Positions 6,128 to 21,261 of a stretch of DNA of 64,000 nt are shown piece after piece. Source of the DNA: a candidate division FCPU426 bacterium (GTDB lineage: Bacteria; Oederibacteriota; Muellerivitia; Muellerivitales; Muellerivitaceae); contig JASHNQ010000007.1 of assembly GCA_030041545.1 (NCBI GenBank), positions 1 through 64,000 of the forward strand. Reading direction: 5' to 3'. A program made the position numbers and the translations under genes. The notes beneath the pieces are model-generated. The model was not told the DNA's origin. It saw nothing but the letters and a program-made list of their open reading frames with translations, and made no database searches. Position 1 is the stretch's first letter; the number at the start of each line of letters is the position of its first letter.

Positions 6128-6549
6128 GCACCTTGGTGATGGATGCAAGCGTCGCCATGAAGGTTTTCATGAGGGAACCCCTGGCGGAGGCAGCTGAGGC
6201 CGCTTTTTTGCCGCCCCATCACCTTCATGCGCCGGATTTTTTCATTTTGGAAATCCATAACGCCCTTCTCAAAAAGGAGCGCCGCAAGGAAATGACAGCT
6301 TCACAGGCGGAGGAAGCCCGGTCATCCCTTCAAGGTTTACCCGTCCAATATCATCCTTTCGATTTCCTGCTTAAAGCGGCCTATCTTGCCGCCCGTGAGG
6401 CGGGATGCAGCCTGTATGACGGCCTTTATCTCGAACTGGCCCTGCGCTTGGATTGCCAAGTGGTGACCGCCGACCGGCGGCTTTACAACAACCTATCCAA
6501 CAGCCCGTTTTCCAAGCACATCCTTTGGGTGGAAGATTTATCTGCGTGA
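6124..6549 (+). CDS. PIN-domain toxin (VapC family)
   Basis: VMDASVAMKVFMREPL; LEIHNALL; YDGLYLELALRLDCQVVTADRRLYNNL; TTG start overlapping the antitoxin stop. Confidence 0.85.
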   Translation: MSTLVMDASVAMKVFMREPLAEAAEAAFLPPHHLHAPDFFILEIHNALLKKERRKEMTASQAEEARSSLQGLPVQYHPFDFLLKAAYLAAREAGCSLYDGLYLELALRLDCQVVTADRRLYNNLSNSPFSKHILWVEDLSA

Positions 6550-12861: not shown

Positions 12862-12979
12862 CTTCCATCCTTCGGATGAATTAGGGGTTTTTAACTTCGA
12901 ACTCCTAACTGCTGCGCAGTGGATTATATATAATGGCCGTCACGGAAAGAATCCCCCCGAATCCGACAAGGACTCCAAC

Positions 12980-15900
12980 ATGCCCGTTTCCTTGTATTTA
13001 GGCCCCTACCAGCCCTTTCTCGAGGACGAGTTAGCAAATGCCGTCCAAACTCTCCGCCAGTCCGATTCCTTGTCGCCTTTAGCAGTTTTGGTCCCCAACC
13101 GCGCCCTAGTGCGCCATTTGAGGGAGACCCTGGCCCGGAAAAATGGCTCGGTGATCAACGTCCGGGTGCTGACCCTTCACCAATACCTCGTGGAGTTCAC
13201 GGAAGAGGAATGGATTAAAAAGGGATTCCGGTTGTTGCCGGAATCCCTGGTGCCTTGGGTATTGCGGGAAAACGCCCGGCGGGCAAACTCCAAGGGTGGC
13301 CCCTTTAATGCCGTTGAAAAGACGCCCGGATTCCATAAAACCCTCCAGGCCACCCTGTCCGAACTGCGCCAGGGAGGGTTCACCCCGGTGGAACTTTCGG
13401 AATCGGCGAAGGCCCTAGGGAGGGATAAAAGCCGCAAGCGGCTTTCACTGAAATTGGTCGAATTCGCCGGCCTCATGGCCGAGAACCGGAAATGGAAAGA
13501 GAAGAACCATTGGAAAGACCGGGAAGACCTTTACGAGGACGCGCTATCCCTTACCCCGCCCGCCACGCATCTTTGGACTTACGGTTTTTATGACGCTTCG
13601 ACCCTCCAGCAGAAGGTCCTCCAGCATCTTTGCGGGGCGAAGGAATCCAGCTGGTTTATCCCCTATGAGGAACATCCCGCATTTGAATACGCTAAGCCCT
13701 TCGTGGAGTGGGCGAAAAAGCTTGGAAAAATGGAAAAGGTGGATAGGTGGAAAAGTGAGAAGGGAACAGCGTTAGGAAGACTACAAAATCATTTATTTGA
13801 AACTGAGGTTGCTTCGTCGCAAGCATCGGCCGATTCGGCCGAGGCTCCTCGCAATGACAGCAATTTAAGATTTGCCGAATCGGACGTGAAAATAATTCTT
13901 TGCCCCGGCGAACCCCGGGAAGTGCGGGAAGTAGTGCGGGTTGTCACTGAAGAGGCCGAAAGGCAAAAGACCCAATTCCCCCAATGCGGCCTCTTGCTGC
14001 GACAATTGGAAAGCTACCGTCGCATGATCGCGCCCGCCTTCCAGGGTCAAGGGGTGCCCCTGGCCAAGAACCCCCCGGTCTTCCTGATGGAAACGCCCGA
14101 GGCCAAGGCCTTCCTGCTTTTACTCGAATGTTTCCAAGGGGACTTCCCCCGGGAAACCCTGATGGACTTCCTGGCCAGCCCCAACCTTTCCCCCGAGGGT
14201 TTCGGGGTGGACGAGGGGGATTGGAACCCCCACCTTTGGGACCAGGCCTCCAAGGAAGCCGCGGTGGTGGAGGGCAAGGAAGCCTGGCTGGACCGGCTCC
14301 AGGCCTATCAGCATCTGCGCTCGGACCTGCGCCCCAAGGAAGAGGAGGCCATCACCGACGAGGAATCGCGGTCTTTATCGGCTTTCCGCGCCCAGGTCCT
14401 GCAAAAACTTTTCGACCATGCCCGGCGGTTCGAAAAGGAAAAACATTGGGCAGCCAAGGCCCAGGTCCTCTTCGACCTGGCCGGGAAGGTCTTTATCCCC
14501 TCCAAGGCCAAGAAAGAATTGGAAACTCTGCGCCGAGGGATAGGCATCCTTTCCAAGGACCTTTCGCAAGTGGAAGGCGACGACCTGAACTCCCTTTTTT
14601 CGGACCTGATGGAAGAGGCGAAGATCCCCTGGGACGTCCCCGAACCGGGCGGTGTGGAGGTGTCGGACCTCATGCAGGCGCGCGGCGTTCCCTTTGACGT
14701 GGTGGTCCTGCCCGGGCTGGTGGAGCAGGGTTTCCCCCGGGCGCCCCGGCCCGACCCGCTGCTCCTGGATGAGGAGAGGCGAATCCTCAACGGGCGCTAT
14801 CCGGGTCAGGCCAAGGTGCCGGAGAAAGCTGAGGGACGCCTGGAGGAAAAACTGCTTTTCCTTTTGGCGGCACGAAGCGCCCAAAAATGCCTCATCCTGA
14901 CCGCGTCCCACCTGCACCCCGGCACCGGGGCGCCCCGCATCCCCTCCAGCTACCTTCACGAAGCCTTAAGGGCGGTCACGGGCGAGCGACAAACAACATG
15001 GGACGGGGGCTCTCCCTATGTCCGGAAGGTCACGGTATCCGATTGGGTGCGCGACCAGGGCGAGGCGCGGGTGGACGACCTGGAAGAGGTCTTAAGCCGG
15101 TTCCAGGAAGCCCGCAAGGGTAACCCCCTGCCCGCCCAGGCCTATGCGGCGCGGAAACCCTTCTTTGACGAGGCCCGGAAGCTCCTGAAGGAACGCCAGG
15201 GAAGCCGCAAGTTCACCTCCTACGACGGCATCTTTGAGAACGGGGAAGCCATCGAGAAATTGAGGCAAGGCTATTCCTTGAAGGACAAGACCCTTTCCGC
15301 CTCCCGCTTAGAAACCTACGCCGCCTGCCCCCTGCGCTACTTCTACCGCTATGTGCTAGGCCTGAAGGTACACCCCGAACCCGAGCGGGTCTTCCAGTTG
15401 GACCCGGCGGAAAAGGGCAACCTGATGCACTCAATCCTGGAAGAGACCCTGTCGAAGGGGTCGGCGGAAGGCTGGCTCAAGGCCCGGGATGGACAAAGGG
15501 CCGGGAAAGCCCTGGAAGAAGAGACCCAAAAGGCCTTTGAAAAGCTGGAGAAGGAAGGGGTGCCCGGCACGCCCGCCCTTTGGCAATGGAGCCAGTTCAT
15601 CGTCCGCAAGGATCTTCAACGGGAACTGAAGAAGGTGCTGGAGGAGCGGGATTGGACTCCGGTGGATTTTGAGAAGGCTTTTGGCCGTGAAGACCAGCCC
15701 GAGGTTTCCTTCCAAACCCCGGCGGGCATCTTCCGCTTGGAAGGCTTCATGGACCGGGTAGACCTTTCCGCCGACGGAAAGAAATTACGGGTCGTGGATT
15801 ATAAGTCGGGAAGCAAGGAAGGCTTCAAGAACGACAGCGTGAAGGAAGGCACCAAAATCCAAATGCCCCTCTACCTCTGGGCCTGCCGCATCCTTTACCC

Positions 15901-16186
15901 CGATGCAGTGCCCGAACAGGCGGTTTATGAATTCCTGACCGCCAAGGGCGGCTATGGGGAAACGACCTTCGACGCCGAGGATTGGAAGAAGGTCGAGGAG
16001 CCCTTGAAAGTTCTTTTGACCACCGCGGCCGAAGCGGTGGAGCAGGGATTGTTCCCGGCGGTCGCCAAGGCTTGCAAGAACTGCGATTATCGAATCCTTT
16101 GCGGGCCTGGAGCGGAAAAGCGGGGCAAATGGAAGAAGGAAGACGCAAAGATCAAAAAATACTTTGATTTGGAACAATTATCGTAA
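12980..16186 (+). CDS. addB: AddB-like PD-(D/E)XK nuclease/inactive helicase subunit with C-terminal Cys cluster
   Basis: SASRLETYAACPLRYFYRYVLGL, RLEGFMDRVDL...RVVDYKSGSKE, CKNCDYRILCG; paired with the AddA-like gene downstream. Confidence 0.75.
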   Translation: MPVSLYLGPYQPFLEDELANAVQTLRQSDSLSPLAVLVPNRALVRHLRETLARKNGSVINVRVLTLHQYLVEFTEEEWIKKGFRLLPESLVPWVLRENARRANSKGGPFNAVEKTPGFHKTLQATLSELRQGGFTPVELSESAKALGRDKSRKRLSLKLVEFAGLMAENRKWKEKNHWKDREDLYEDALSLTPPATHLWTYGFYDASTLQQKVLQHLCGAKESSWFIPYEEHPAFEYAKPFVEWAKKLGKMEKVDRWKSEKGTALGRLQNHLFETEVASSQASADSAEAPRNDSNLRFAESDVKIILCPGEPREVREVVRVVTEEAERQKTQFPQCGLLLRQLESYRRMIAPAFQGQGVPLAKNPPVFLMETPEAKAFLLLLECFQGDFPRETLMDFLASPNLSPEGFGVDEGDWNPHLWDQASKEAAVVEGKEAWLDRLQAYQHLRSDLRPKEEEAITDEESRSLSAFRAQVLQKLFDHARRFEKEKHWAAKAQVLFDLAGKVFIPSKAKKELETLRRGIGILSKDLSQVEGDDLNSLFSDLMEEAKIPWDVPEPGGVEVSDLMQARGVPFDVVVLPGLVEQGFPRAPRPDPLLLDEERRILNGRYPGQAKVPEKAEGRLEEKLLFLLAARSAQKCLILTASHLHPGTGAPRIPSSYLHEALRAVTGERQTTWDGGSPYVRKVTVSDWVRDQGEARVDDLEEVLSRFQEARKGNPLPAQAYAARKPFFDEARKLLKERQGSRKFTSYDGIFENGEAIEKLRQGYSLKDKTLSASRLETYAACPLRYFYRYVLGLKVHPEPERVFQLDPAEKGNLMHSILEETLSKGSAEGWLKARDGQRAGKALEEETQKAFEKLEKEGVPGTPALWQWSQFIVRKDLQRELKKVLEERDWTPVDFEKAFGREDQPEVSFQTPAGIFRLEGFMDRVDLSADGKKLRVVDYKSGSKEGFKNDSVKEGTKIQMPLYLWACRILYPDAVPEQAVYEFLTAKGGYGETTFDAEDWKKVEEPLKVLLTTAAEAVEQGLFPAVAKACKNCDYRILCGPGAEKRGKWKKEDAKIKKYFDLEQLS
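13801..13863 (+). repeat. Copy of the AACTGAGGTTGCTTCG...CTCGCAATGACAGCAA repeat inside addB
   Basis: Sequence match to intergenic copies at 85-127 and 21147-21261; encodes TEVASSQASADSAEAPRNDSN in frame. Confidence 0.75.
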
Positions 16187-16223: not shown

Positions 16224-16714
16224 ATGAAAAATTTTTTTATGAGGCTATTAATTTTTTTAATCGGTTTTTTTAGCTTCTGGGTTCCGAGTTTTGTGGGGTG
16301 GACTATCACAGGGCAAGGCGAATTTTCAAAGCTTACTTTTTTTTAATATTTATTTCTCCATTTTTATCAGCTTGTATTCCTCTCTTTTGGTTTAGAAAAA
16401 AATATTCACAAAATGAAAAGATATTAATAGCTCCGTTGTTGGTAATGGGAATTTGGATATTGGGACCTTTAGGATGCATGACGGACGGAAGCGTTTCTGG
16501 AGGCGGATTTACGACCATGAAATCTTTGGATGACTATAAGGAATTCTTTTTGATGATATTAGTTTTTCCAGTTTCCACAATTTCCGGCTCTACTTACGCC
16601 GGAACATTAGGCGCTTTACTCATTTTTACTTTGTTATCTATTGCTTTAGTTTTATTTGATGGATACAAAATCTTAGCAAAAAGAAATAGTTCTAAATTGT
16701 CGGAGTCTAAATGA
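16224..16714 (+). CDS. Small low-GC membrane protein, apparently split by a -1 frameshift at T8
   Basis: Frame 1 MKNFFMRLLIFLIGFFSFWVPSFVGWTITGQGEFSKLTFF* (16224-16346) continues as LIFISPFLSACIPLFWFRKK... in the -1 frame (track ORF 16298-16714). Confidence 0.5.
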
Positions 16715-16911
16715 TTTCCGACCAAGCAGTTCGTGATCAGGTCATCCATGACCATGAGACCCTCTTCGCGGTGGACGCGGGGGCGGGAACGGGCAAGACC
16801 ACACTTCTGGTTTCCCGGCTCATCGCGCTTCTCCTGGAAAAGCAGGCACCCTTAAGCCGCATCGTTGTGCTGGGACCTACTGGATTTTTCCGGGGCCTTA
16901 TGAGATTATGA
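16711..16911 (+). pseudogene. Truncated duplicate of the addA 5' end
   Basis: MISDQAVRDQVIHDHETLFAVDAGAGTGKTTLLVSRLIALLLEKQAPLSRI matches the N-terminus of the 17776 gene; about 19 mismatches over ~155 bp by hand alignment. Confidence 0.85.
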
Positions 16912-16930
16912 CCATAATATATAGTCATAA
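16906..16930. promoter_or_regulatory. Palindrome upstream of Phd-type antitoxin (candidate operator)
   Basis: TTATGAC-cataatatata-GTCATAA ending 9 bp before the ATG at 16940. Confidence 0.55.
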
Positions 16931-16939
16931 GGAGGAACA

Positions 16940-17167
16940 ATGAAAACCATCGCCGCGGGCGAATTCAAGGCCAAGTGTCTCTCATTATTGGATGAGGTTA
17001 GCCGCGCCCATGAAACCATTGTGATCACCAAACGTGGTGTTCCTGTGGCGAAGGTGGCTCCAGTCCTTAAAGAAAAAGGTGGCCGCCACGCTTCCCTTCG
17101 CGGGAGTGTTTTGGCCGAGAAAGACCTTATCCATCCGATCGATGAAGCCTGGGAAGCCGAAAAGTGA
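16940..17167 (+). CDS. Phd/YefM-family antitoxin
   Basis: MKTIAAGEFKAKCLSLLDEVSRAHETIVITKRGVPVAKVAPV. Confidence 0.85.
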   Translation: MKTIAAGEFKAKCLSLLDEVSRAHETIVITKRGVPVAKVAPVLKEKGGRHASLRGSVLAEKDLIHPIDEAWEAEK

Positions 17168-17550
17168 TCCTTTTGGACACCCATGCCTGGATTTGGTGGT
17201 GCACAGGCTCCACCAAGATTTCACCCAAGGCGTTAAAGGCCATTAAGGCCGAGGAAACGGTAGGGATTTGCGCCATCAGCTGTTGGGAAGTCGGAATGTT
17301 GGTGGCGAAAAAGCGGTTGGTCTTGGACCGGGATGTTGAGGTGTGGGTGGATCAGGCCCTGAAATTCCCCAAGGCCCAGTTGATCCCCCTGACGCCCCGT
17401 ATAGCCGTAAAAAGCACCTTGTTAGCGGAAGGATTCCACGGAGACCCAGTGGACCGGATTCTCGTGGCCACCGCCGCCGACCATGGATGTCCCCTGATTA
17501 GCAAAGACGAGCGAATCCAGGGTTTCAAGGGCATCAAAGTGATTTGGTGA
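17164..17550 (+). CDS. PIN-domain toxin (VapC family)
   Basis: MILLDTHAWIWW; AISCWEVGMLVAKKR; FHGDPVDRILVATAADHGCPLISKDERI; overlaps antitoxin by 4 nt. Confidence 0.9.
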   Translation: MILLDTHAWIWWCTGSTKISPKALKAIKAEETVGICAISCWEVGMLVAKKRLVLDRDVEVWVDQALKFPKAQLIPLTPRIAVKSTLLAEGFHGDPVDRILVATAADHGCPLISKDERIQGFKGIKVIW

Positions 17551-17561
17551 AAAAGAATTCA

Positions 17562-17714
17562 ATGCGAACACGTAAACCCAATAAAACATACATTACCAGC
17601 CGACCGAGTCATCGCCGCAAATGGTTGAGAAAAAAACTCCGGCGGGAATCCCTCTTAAGCAGGAAAGACTCCATGGAAATCCTATCAAAGTTTGAAAAAC
17701 TCGAATCAGCTTGA
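17562..17714 (+). CDS. Small basic ORF (50 aa)
   Basis: Hand translation MRTRKPNKTYITSRPSHRRKWLRKKLRRESLLSRKDSMEILSKFEKLESA; below the size cut of the supplied track. Confidence 0.35.
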   Translation: MRTRKPNKTYITSRPSHRRKWLRKKLRRESLLSRKDSMEILSKFEKLESA

Positions 17715-17775
17715 ACCTTCCACTTTGTTAAAGCCGACTTCACAACAACACATCATGATTGAGGTTTTTATTTAG

Positions 17776-20700
17776 ATGATCTCCGATCAAGTTATTAGAG
17801 ACCAGGTCACACATGGCCATGAAACCCTCTTCGCGGTGGACGCGGGGGCGGGGACGGGCAAGACCACGCTCCTGGTGTCCCGGCTCATCGCGCTTCTCCT
17901 GGAAAAGCAGGCCCCTTTAAGCCACATCGCGGCCATCACCTTCACCGAAAAAGCCGCCGCCGAATTGGCGGAGCGGCTCCGCTCCAAACTGGAGGAGACC
18001 CTTCAGCCCGTTCGACTCGCTTCGCTCGCTCAGGGTGATCAAAACCAAAGGAAGGTTTTGATCAGCAAAGCATTAGAGGATATGGAACGGGCCCCGATTT
18101 CCACCATCCATTCCTTCTGTGCGGCGCTGCTGCGTGAATACCCGGTGGAAGCCGGGGTGGACCCGCAATTCACCCTGTTGGACGAGGTCCAATCCAGGGC
18201 CTTTGAGGCCCAAACCTGGGAACATTGGCTCAAGAAAAGCCTGTCCCGGCCTGTGGAACCGCTCTTCCACTTCCAACGGCTAGGCGGCACCTTTGAGCAC
18301 GTTGACGAGCTTAAGCAGTTCATTAAAAAGAACCACACCTTGCTGTTGATACGCGAAAAACAACCTCTCCCTTCGGTGGCGACTTTCGTGAATTCATGGA
18401 AGGACTTCATGGCTTGGAGTCGAAAGGCCGCCAAGGCCTGCTCTAATCATGAGGACGGGCTTTATGAGGAACTCGAAGTCCTTTGGACCCAAAGCCAGAC
18501 TATGGAATCTATGGACTCCAATGACCTGGCCTTTGAATTGGCCAAACTGGACGTCCCCAAAGTCAAGAAAACGGGCAGCCAAAAGGCCTGGGATAAAGCC
18601 ACATTGGCCGGGGTTCGGGAAAGGTTCCTGCGGCTGGCCGAGGACCACCAAACAGCCTTTGCCCCCTTCAAGGACGCAGTGCTCCTCAACCTGGTCCATT
18701 GGATTTGGGACTACTTCCGGGAATGGGAAGAGCAAAAACGGAAGGGTGGGTTCCTTGATTTCGACGACCTGCTGTTGAAGACCCGGGACCTCCTTTTGAA
18801 CCATCCCGAAGTGCGGGAAGAGTTGAAGGACCGCTTTGATTACCTTTTCGTGGACGAGTTCCAGGACACGGACCCGCTCCAGGTTGAGATTGTTTTCTTT
18901 TTGTGTGAGCGATCCGCCTCCCTACGCCAAGGCTCCGGGAGGCAGGCTCAAGTCACAGATTGGAAAAAAATTGTACTTGAGCCTGGCAAACTCTTTCTGG
19001 TCGGTGACCCGAAACAAAGCATCTACCGTTTCCGCCGGGCGGACGTGGCCATCTATGAGGAAACCAAGAAAAGAATCCTGGCCAATGGGGGCAAGGTCGA
19101 GGTCCTGACCGAAAATTTCCGAACCGTGGGCGGGCTGGTGGAATGGGTCAACGGTCGGTTTCCCTCCCAGTTCGAGGGCACGGGCATCCAATACTATCCC
19201 TTGAGCCCAAACCGGAAAGCGGGGAAGACTGAAGGCACGCTTCCCATCCTTTGGGGGCTGAAGATTCCCAAGCTCACCGAGGAAAAGCCTTCTAAAACCT
19301 TCTGGCGCCAATGGGAGGCGGAATGGGTGGCAGCATTCCTCAAGGACCATGTCCTGAATGGAGTCTTCACGGTATCCGACCCCAAAACCCATGAGAAACG
19401 CCTGGCGCGCAAGGGCGACATCGCCATCTTGTTCCGGGACCTTTCCAACGATATCGAGGAGGCTTGGGAAGATTCCCTGCGCCGGCGGGACTTGTCCTAC
19501 CAGATCGTGGGTGGCAAGCGCTTCTACAACCGGCCCGAGATCGTGGCCCTTTCCACGCTCCTGACCTGCCTCTCCTCGCCCGCCGACGAGGCCGCCGCCG
19601 TGGCGGTGTTGAGGAGCCCGCTTTTTGGCTTCAGCGACGAGGAGTTGTTCCTTCACCGGGCAAGAGGAGGGAATTTTCAATTTTTAAATCCCTCAATCTC
19701 AAACACCCCTCACCCTAACCCTCTCCCGCAAGGGGAGAGGGGAAATATTAAATCAGCTTTCGCATACTTGAGGGAATGGCACCAAGCCACCCGCAACCTC
19801 GGGGTTTCGGACACCCTGGCCGAGTTTTACCGGCGCACGAACCTTTTGGCCGTCACGGCCGGCCAGCCCCACGGGGAACAGCGCGTGGCGAACCTGATGA
19901 AGGTGCTGGACCAGGCCCGGGAGCTGGAAACCTCCCAGCATTTCACCTACCGGGCCTTCACCCAATGGCTCACCACCCAGCAGGAGGAAGGCACCCTGGA
20001 GGGTGAGGCCCCGGGGCCCGATTCCTCCGAGGACCGCATCACCCTCATGACCATCCACAAGGCCAAGGGGCTGGAATTCCCCATCGTGTTCGTCTCCGCC
20101 TGGGCCGCCGAACCTAAGGACTCGGGCAGCTTAGTGGACCGCAAGCATTTGGCCGGGGCCTTCAAGGTCGGCGCGGCGGAACTGGGTTTGAAGACCCTCA
20201 ACTACGATGAGGTGAAAGGCGAGGAGGACCTGCAGCGCAAGGCCGAGGATACCCGGCTGCTTTACGTGGCGGCTACCCGGGCCCGGGATTGCCTGCTCCT
20301 GCCCCATTTTGAGTTCCCCGCTGAGGGAAAATTCCAGAACGAAAACCTCTTCGCGGGTCCACTTTTGAAGGCCCTGGAAGAAAAGGACTCCATAGTCCAT
20401 TGGGCCGAAACCAAGGAGGGGGTTGAACCCTTGGGCGATCCGCCGGCCTGGGTGGTGCCCCTGGACGAAAAGCCGGGCAAGGCTCTGGAACAAGAAAAAG
20501 AAAAATTGAAGGCGGAACAGGAAGCCCGGGCCAAAAATATACAATCCTTGAGGGGCGAGAAACAGTTCAAGTCGGTCACTTCGGTCCTCGCCGTGGATAC
20601 GGACAAACAAGAAAGGGAAGGACAGGTCTTCGAGGAACCTGAAACAACCTCGCCCTGGGGCGGGAAAGACCTAGGGTCCGTGGTCCACTTGCTACTGGAA

Positions 20701-21117
20701 AAAGGCTGGGATTGGGACGAGGCGACCCTTCGCAAAGCGGCCTTGCTCTACGCGGAAAAAGCGGGGATTGGAAAAGAAGGCGCCGAGGAAGCCGTCCGAA
20801 TGGCCCTTCCAGCCCTGCAAAGCCCTATCCTCCAGCGGGCGAGGGATTCGAAGAAGGCGTTCCGGGAACTTCCATTAACGGTCAAGAACAAGGATGGAAC
20901 CTACTTGAACGCCGTGCTCGATTTGGCATTCCTGGATCAAAGCGAATGGGTGATCGTGGATTACAAAACAGATAAAGACCCGGAAAAACTGAAGGAAAAA
21001 TACCGGCAACAAATCGGTTATTACCGGAAGCTACTGGAAGAATCGACCCGCCACAAAGTCAAGGAAGCCCACCTTTATTTCCTCCAGCACCAAAAAGTAG
21101 AAACTGTCGAGTGTTAA
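17776..21117 (+). CDS. addA: AddA/RecB-like UvrD-family helicase-nuclease
   Basis: VDAGAGTGKTTLLVSRL Walker A; LFVDEFQDTDPLQ; GDPKQSIYRFRRADV; ITLMTIHKAKGLEFPIVFV; LLYVAATRARD; C-terminal AVLDLAF...VIVDYKTDK nuclease motif. Confidence 0.85.
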   Translation: MISDQVIRDQVTHGHETLFAVDAGAGTGKTTLLVSRLIALLLEKQAPLSHIAAITFTEKAAAELAERLRSKLEETLQPVRLASLAQGDQNQRKVLISKALEDMERAPISTIHSFCAALLREYPVEAGVDPQFTLLDEVQSRAFEAQTWEHWLKKSLSRPVEPLFHFQRLGGTFEHVDELKQFIKKNHTLLLIREKQPLPSVATFVNSWKDFMAWSRKAAKACSNHEDGLYEELEVLWTQSQTMESMDSNDLAFELAKLDVPKVKKTGSQKAWDKATLAGVRERFLRLAEDHQTAFAPFKDAVLLNLVHWIWDYFREWEEQKRKGGFLDFDDLLLKTRDLLLNHPEVREELKDRFDYLFVDEFQDTDPLQVEIVFFLCERSASLRQGSGRQAQVTDWKKIVLEPGKLFLVGDPKQSIYRFRRADVAIYEETKKRILANGGKVEVLTENFRTVGGLVEWVNGRFPSQFEGTGIQYYPLSPNRKAGKTEGTLPILWGLKIPKLTEEKPSKTFWRQWEAEWVAAFLKDHVLNGVFTVSDPKTHEKRLARKGDIAILFRDLSNDIEEAWEDSLRRRDLSYQIVGGKRFYNRPEIVALSTLLTCLSSPADEAAAVAVLRSPLFGFSDEELFLHRARGGNFQFLNPSISNTPHPNPLPQGERGNIKSAFAYLREWHQATRNLGVSDTLAEFYRRTNLLAVTAGQPHGEQRVANLMKVLDQARELETSQHFTYRAFTQWLTTQQEEGTLEGEAPGPDSSEDRITLMTIHKAKGLEFPIVFVSAWAAEPKDSGSLVDRKHLAGAFKVGAAELGLKTLNYDEVKGEEDLQRKAEDTRLLYVAATRARDCLLLPHFEFPAEGKFQNENLFAGPLLKALEEKDSIVHWAETKEGVEPLGDPPAWVVPLDEKPGKALEQEKEKLKAEQEARAKNIQSLRGEKQFKSVTSVLAVDTDKQEREGQVFEEPETTSPWGGKDLGSVVHLLLEKGWDWDEATLRKAALLYAEKAGIGKEGAEEAVRMALPALQSPILQRARDSKKAFRELPLTVKNKDGTYLNAVLDLAFLDQSEWVIVDYKTDKDPEKLKEKYRQQIGYYRKLLEESTRHKVKEAHLYFLQHQKVETVEC
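19704..19745. repeat. REP-like palindrome (CCCTCACCCTAACCCTCTCCCGCAAGGGGAGAGGGG) inside addA
   Basis: Encodes TPHPNPLPQGERG in frame; related repeats at 48967-49066. Confidence 0.75.
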
Positions 21118-21123
21118 GAATTC

Positions 21124-21261
21124 ATTGCGAGATTCGAATTTTGAGGCGAAGCAACCTCAGTTCCAAAACAACTTCCTTGGGAAAAGGCTTATTTAAACTG
21201 GGGTTGCTTTGGGCAGAACCGGTCCCCTATTCGGGGACCAAGCCCTCGCAATGACAGCAAC
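21124..21261. repeat. Intergenic repeat, same family as 19-130 and 13801-13863
   Basis: TTGAGGCGAAGCAACCTCAGTT ... AAACTGGGGTTGCTTT ... CCCTCGCAATGACAGCAA. Confidence 0.75.

Follow-up and report, generated by a model that had tools for sequence, protein, structure and literature searches.

A duplicated addA start brackets a predicted toxin-antitoxin pair at the addB-addA junction of a candidate division FCPU426 bacterium

The DNA analyzed here, hereafter the window, comprises the first 64,000 nucleotides of contig JASHNQ010000007.1 (assembly GCA_030041545.1) from a candidate division FCPU426 bacterium of the family Muellerivitaceae. It contains the genes addB and addA, and at the junction between them a predicted toxin-antitoxin (TA) pair of the Phd/PIN kind lies between a truncated copy of the addA start (copy A) and the whole addA gene, whose own start is referred to as copy B. 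The junction is laid out as follows.

12875-16186, plus strand: addB, an AddB-like nuclease subunit and upstream partner of addA (PDDEXK_1, E=9e-40; TIGR02773 addB_Gpos, E=5e-28)
16224-16714, plus strand: older low-GC insert (~35% GC), a membrane-type gene apparently split by a frameshift (GC profile, reading frames)
16708-16866, plus strand: copy A, truncated addA start (codons 1-51), a scar (repeat search, fragment comparison)
16906-16930, no strand assigned: operator-like palindrome TTATGAC...GTCATAA, just 5' of the Phd gene (sequence)
16940-17167, plus strand: Phd/YefM-type antitoxin (PF02604, E=5.5e-8; TIGR01552, E=8e-7)
17164-17550, plus strand: PIN-domain toxin with a GTG start (PF01850, E=1.5e-15)
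17544-17714, plus strand: small basic open reading frame (ORF) of 56 aa, probable antitoxin remnant (match to L028:1326-1565)
17773-17929, plus strand: copy B, the corresponding start of the intact addA (repeat search)
17776-21117, plus strand: intact addA, 1113 aa (UvrD-helicase, E=4e-57; UvrD_C; PDDEXK_1; TIGR02785, E=3e-95)

A repeat search of the window returned the addA start as a two-copy family of direct repeats 157 nt long (16708-16864 and 17773-17929; 87% identity, spacing 1065), each made up of 3 nt ahead of the start codon and addA codons 1-51. When the fragment was compared with the whole genome by BLAST, these were the only two places matched, the second copy at E=3e-50. Inside the addA frame the copies differ at 19 sites, which agrees with the roughly 19 counted by hand in an earlier, sequence-only reading of this DNA that had recognized the duplicated 5' end of addA around the Phd/PIN pair. 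That reading also suggested that addA function had been spared, and the product of the intact gene does retain the UvrD N, UvrD C and PD-(D/E)XK domains in a profile search. The start ATG of copy A overlaps the stop of the low-GC ORF (16714) as ATGA, and the fragment ORF runs for 66 aa, with homology to addA only as far as codon 51-52.

The GTG start of the PIN gene overlaps the stop of the antitoxin gene, so that the two genes share 4 nt, and this overlap together with their domains points to a type II TA pair; from its position, the palindrome ahead of them is a putative operator. The small basic ORF matches the C-terminal part of a 79-aa protein encoded before PemK at the same junction in a relative, G004 (53% over 49 aa, E=2.8e-9), and because of that match it is most likely a remnant of the antitoxin of an older TA at this site. 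Since the G004 protein has no Pfam match, its own antitoxin role is suggested by its place before PemK. The Phd, PIN and remnant genes are the only ORFs between copies A and B, and no transposase is found among them. A transposon or insertion sequence is not supported on that ground and by the repeat itself, which at 157 nt is not a short target duplication. An integron gene cassette is not supported either, because the bracketing repeat is addA coding sequence; bracketing repeats vary between loci along with the neighboring gene, whereas integron cassettes share non-coding attC sites. A Pfam search with the low-GC gene outside copy A gave no match; its frameshift apparently lies at the T8 run at 16337-16344, and the two frames on either side of this run together look like a single membrane-type protein.

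The 19 differences between the copies are distributed 2/4/13 over the three codon positions. With G005, G001 and G007 of the same family as outside sequences, the changes private to copy A fall 0/0/7 and those private to copy B 2/3/3, the amino-acid changes thus sitting in B; the chance that all seven private changes of copy A would be at third positions is 5e-4. Copy A appears to have kept the ancestral protein while accumulating silent changes, which is unlike the neutral decay of an unused copy, and it does not look like a decayed leftover because such a copy would change at all codon positions. In a tree, albeit with weak support, A is nearest to G001, which belongs to the same genus, and B is nearest to G007, from another genus; only 11% of bootstraps make A and B each other's closest sequences, and their divergence about equals that between genera of the family. 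The same pattern is seen in G007, where the undisturbed 71 nt of an addA fragment differ from that genome's own addA at six sites, all six of them third positions. The simplest reading is that A and B each functioned as an addA start in a lineage of its own before recombination joined them. The codon-position pattern and the affinities of the copies support the earlier suggestion that a divergent addA start came in with the cassette, rather than arising by recent local duplication.

Seven relatives of the family, all draft genomes, were compared at the addB-addA junction, which could be read in six; in the congener G002, addA lies at a contig edge and lacks the codons before 366. The junction is empty in one of the six, G006, where addB and addA overlap and there is a single addA start and no insert, and it holds different genes in the other five. 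A 262-aa low-GC gene lies there in G005, a low-GC gene with a signal-peptide-like start in G003, and a low-GC Ser/Thr kinase gene in G001 (L025:5491-7116; Pfam Pkinase), the last resembling the phage-defense kinases PADLOC PD-T4-6 and Stk2. These three have a single addA start each, and comparison with 200 shuffles detected no addA fragment in their junctions. The junction of G007 reads low-GC gene, addA-start fragment, a RelE-like gene (so labeled by eye, without a match in Pfam) and its weakly CcdA-like partner, and addA, and that of G004 reads repeats, a 40-nt addA fragment, the 79-aa gene with PemK, and addA. Both fragments score far above 200 shuffles.

The addA fragments in the window, G007 and G004 thus accompany unrelated TA pairs and have different end points; that of G007 carries a frameshifting insertion and that of G004 is heavily eroded. 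A duplicated arrangement conserved among relatives under selection on the short ORF, which would have spoken against the earlier interpretation, was not seen in this comparison, and the G007 and G004 arrangements are better understood as repeat events than as one conserved arrangement. Because relatives carry different cargo, and scars with different end points, the junction is a hotspot at which an addA scar recurs with unrelated TA pairs. The fragments in relatives, like the divergence between A and B, also favor the recombination-mediated acquisition proposed earlier. A scan of the collection with the AddA N-terminus gave a single distant match, in Bdellovibrionales, and a search for a donor of the PIN toxin returned best relatives only 38-41% identical, from other families, none of them in the addA junctions that were read.

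Other repeats also touch this region. Two in-frame repeat-like inserts within addA (18011-18033 and 19712-19737; VRLASLAQG and TPHPNPLPQGERG) are reminiscent of palindromic repeats that insert within coding genes, the first being present in the addA of G005 and absent from those of G001 and G007. An inverted pair of 52 nt (88% identity; 84-135 and 21112-21163) has its arms 21 kb apart, one of them at the stop of addA; it resembles a dispersed repeat, and a similar repeat occurs in the addB-addA gap of G004.

The 3' end of metH is a second hotspot, with different cargo in almost every relative. It is followed by VapBC in G000 and G004, a Fic protein in G005, low-GC genes in G006, and a C5 methylase, Eco29kI endonuclease and Vsr in G003, a restriction-modification (R-M) unit at which no scar was detected. 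In G001 the order is a WG-repeat gene, a scar and an FRG-domain gene, and in G007 an MqsA-like antitoxin with its neighbor, followed by a metH-end scar and, beyond it, an older VapBC. Scars of the last metH codons are present in four of seven genomes, that of G001 being a weak match over a short stretch (15 aa, E=0.004). The order in G007 shows stacking, with the newest cargo beside the whole gene, the scar as the older gene end, and the older cargo outside it. The window is its mirror image: inside, next to the whole addA, lie the antitoxin remnant and Phd/PIN, then the addA scar, and outside it the older low-GC gene.

To place these cases in a wider context, we surveyed 97 TA loci, chosen by family hits in draft genomes mostly of this family with some from more distant ones, by comparing each locus with itself for bracketing direct repeats (spacing under 1900, E<=1e-5, identity >=75%); short contigs lower the TA count. 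Such repeats were found at 15 of the 97 loci and, when the three addA loci are left out, at 12 of 94; random sites gave 6 of 420 (p=5e-6), a control that is itself inflated by paralogous gene tracts. Repeat lengths at other loci include 71, 40, 102 and 308 nt. Four loci with spacing above 1900 bp or identity of ~70% (L053, L114, L125 and L127) were excluded, being probably paralogues or background. Among the acetyltransferase controls to a phylum-wide Phd sample, repeats occurred at 2 of 23, one of them a dispersed non-coding repeat. DNA repeats alone were therefore distrusted, and a controlled protein-level test was run on whether the end of a neighboring gene that faces the TA recurs on the TA's other side. 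It does at 11 of 82 TA loci, compared with 14 of 450 random sites (mostly paralogous genes; p=4e-4) and 0 of 43 acetyltransferase loci (p=0.016). Overall, some 11-13% of the TA loci carry bracketing repeats of this kind, compared with 1.5-3% of the random sites.

The scars are of two types. In the 5' type a truncated start, the TA and the whole gene follow one another (addA, a GT9 gene in G007, an ABC transporter in G003 and a glycoside hydrolase in G011), and in the 3' type the whole gene, the TA and a truncated end (metH, gyrB, GT4 and an M3 peptidase). At one locus (L146:938-3794) the 3' end of a GT4 glycosyltransferase gene is present three times, once in the whole gene and twice as a scar; an AbrB-like/PIN pair separates two of these copies, an apparent serial insertion at one gene end. 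One match among the random controls proved to hold a DUF3800 gene, with a truncated DNA methylase start on one side of it and the whole one on the other (L152:3394-6535; 94% identity over 96 nt), the same architecture with non-TA cargo. The special meaning that had been attached to a recombination helicase as the target was not borne out: since metH, gyrB and genes for glycosyltransferases, an ABC transporter, a peptidase and a methylase show this architecture too, it is not peculiar to addA.

The arrangement resembles several known systems. "Insertion with long target duplication" (ILTD) is reportedly Kobayashi's term for a behavior of R-M genes. It has been described in Helicobacter pylori (Nobusato et al., 2000) and is also credited to Furuta et al. 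(2010), as cited in PMC3874152, PMC3031569 and PMC1643837; PMC3874152 gives target repeats "in the order of 100 bp". The likeness lies in an addictive two-gene unit without a recombinase, bracketed by long direct target repeats of that order (here 157 nt at 87% identity), in related genomes with a single uninterrupted target (G006, and a single addA start also in G001, G003 and G005), and in spread suggested by comparing related genomes. The differences are that the cargo here is a type II TA, the Phd/PIN pair, or elsewhere DUF3800 or other genes, and not R-M; that the repeats end at the start or stop codon of a gene of which one copy is whole; and that the copies diverged under selection, which points to a gene end imported with the cargo and not to duplication on the spot. 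The window case thus appears to work like ILTD, extended to TA, DUF3800 and other cargo.

In Escherichia coli, linear DNA with one-sided homology was recovered mostly after circularization and a single RecA-dependent crossover, which duplicated part of the anchor gene, 109-950 bp in length (PMC3240628). One-sided homology and a truncated and a whole copy around foreign DNA are common to both cases, with repeats of 40-308 bp in our loci; however, laboratory plasmids were used there, whereas here natural TA cargo lies between diverged relatives. The type VI secretion system (T6SS) effector-immunity modules of Vibrio cholerae undergo sequential displacement, and homology-facilitated illegitimate recombination has been put forward for T6SS toxin-immunity arrays that contain orphan immunity genes (PMC5361080). 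There, each new module enters through a conserved anchor and displaces earlier modules outward, with orphan immunity genes staying behind. The antitoxin remnant (17544-17714) and the TAs stacked at metH of G007 are comparable, although the V. cholerae anchor is part of the effector cluster and the anchors here are unrelated housekeeping genes. We found no paper joining toxin-antitoxin with homology-facilitated illegitimate recombination in a literature search that covered subscription journals thinly, and priority is not established.

Observed directly at this locus and its counterparts are the structure itself, the intact addA, a divergence that does not look neutral, the return of the arrangement with other TA pairs both at addA and at the ends of other genes, and earlier cargo left behind in layers. 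We consider it probable, if by no means certain, that the locus records an import, in which DNA with a TA and the addA start of a relative recombined by way of that end alone. The incoming fragment would have consisted of Phd/PIN, the old antitoxin remnant and the start of a relative's addA, with homology at one end only. Its likely route would be end-joined circularization followed by one RecA-type crossover in addA; a close alternative would be homology-facilitated illegitimate recombination, which relies on homology at one flank and on end-joining at the opposite one. That process is known from Acinetobacter, Pneumococcus and P. stutzeri, and its true products usually delete, rather than duplicate, resident DNA. 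Either route would rebuild a full-length addA behind the cassette and leave the first ~51 codons of the resident gene upstream as a truncated copy, still joined to the older low-GC gene. Copy A would then be the resident and copy B the import, with a single crossover as the step at addA. The TA may persist because a cell that recombines the cassette out would face the toxin, so that addiction would help to hold an otherwise unstable repeat.

Several results weigh against such an import. No donor was found with this Phd/PIN beside a copy-B-like addA start; tree supports are weak (A with G001, 0.71; B with G007, 0.63) because only 153 nt are usable; a sliding comparison along addA placed no breakpoint between donor and recipient, the relatives being too few; the metH repeats have mixed codon-position patterns (2/4/5 and 4/2/7), so that decay also contributes there; and in a phylum-wide Phd sample none of 14 usable loci had bracketing repeats. 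The TA could instead have inserted with local duplication of its target, as in strict ILTD, leaving copies that were identical at birth and a fragment that has decayed since. This form is the one described for R-M genes in PMC3874152 and PMC1643837, and the G004 and metH scars do display decay. We nevertheless judge it unlikely here, as the window fragment changed at third positions only while the amino-acid changes are in the intact gene, and the G007 differences are likewise all at third positions (6/6). On whether the second copy arose from the target itself, codon positions argue for two pre-diverged copies in the window and G007, and give a mixed picture at metH.

A local duplication whose copy B was later replaced by homologous recombination with a relative's addA would yield both the third-position bias and the affinities observed, but two events would be needed, in the window addA and again in G007, the second without independent sign, and this seems quite improbable. 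The open 66-aa ORF, the ATGA overlap and the wholly silent private changes could be taken to mean that the fragment is a selected short gene or leader, acting as a P-loop peptide or by translational coupling into the TA; with its G007 equivalent frameshifted, that of G004 eroded to 40 nt and the end codons differing, we find this very hard to sustain. Mis-assembly, a concern of the sequence-only reading, was not upheld. The genome is a draft of 115 contigs with an estimated contamination of 1.3%, yet the copies differ by 13%, both are situated deep within a contig of 73.6 kb, and separately assembled genomes have equivalent structures with other TA pairs; an artefact is scarcely credible. The idea of the TA as a guard of AddAB found no supporting evidence, and a special link between TA and recombination is disfavored because metH and gyrB carry the same scar. 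As a whole, the sequence-only reading is supported in its import that spared addA, and not in the significance it gave to a recombination helicase or in its view of acquisition as a single event, the process being recurrent and layered.

The genome is rich in related genes, with 43 PIN and 14 Phd/YefM hits, far above most relatives, and a second PIN-domain toxin is encoded in the window at 6136-6486. A minus-strand tract (21269-48600) of diverged repeated genes, encoding glycosyltransferase-like membrane proteins with TPR-like ends, yields many weak direct repeats ~2.1-2.3 kb apart.

How TAs, which carry no recombinase, arrive at chromosomal sites without a nearby mobile element is an open question, and gene-end scars provide a readable trace of the act of insertion. 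The corresponding search rule, a truncated gene end, cargo and a whole gene, can be applied to any genome, and the scars offer a simple origin for orphan antitoxins and for layered small islands. At addAB, genes for toxins and a kinase and low-GC genes of unknown kind have inserted into a repair operon time and again, with both subunits left intact. It is tempting to speculate, though we would put this forward only tentatively and with considerable doubt, that the TA and defense modules of this family spread without a recombinase of their own, on DNA bearing a housekeeping-gene end, homing to that gene in relatives via host recombination, rebuilding it, and being held in by their own addiction. 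Successive arrivals would then stack at favored gene ends, such as the addA start and the metH end, building small defense islands outward. Our findings suggest that the end of a normal gene may serve toxin and defense genes as a landing anchor in their spread.

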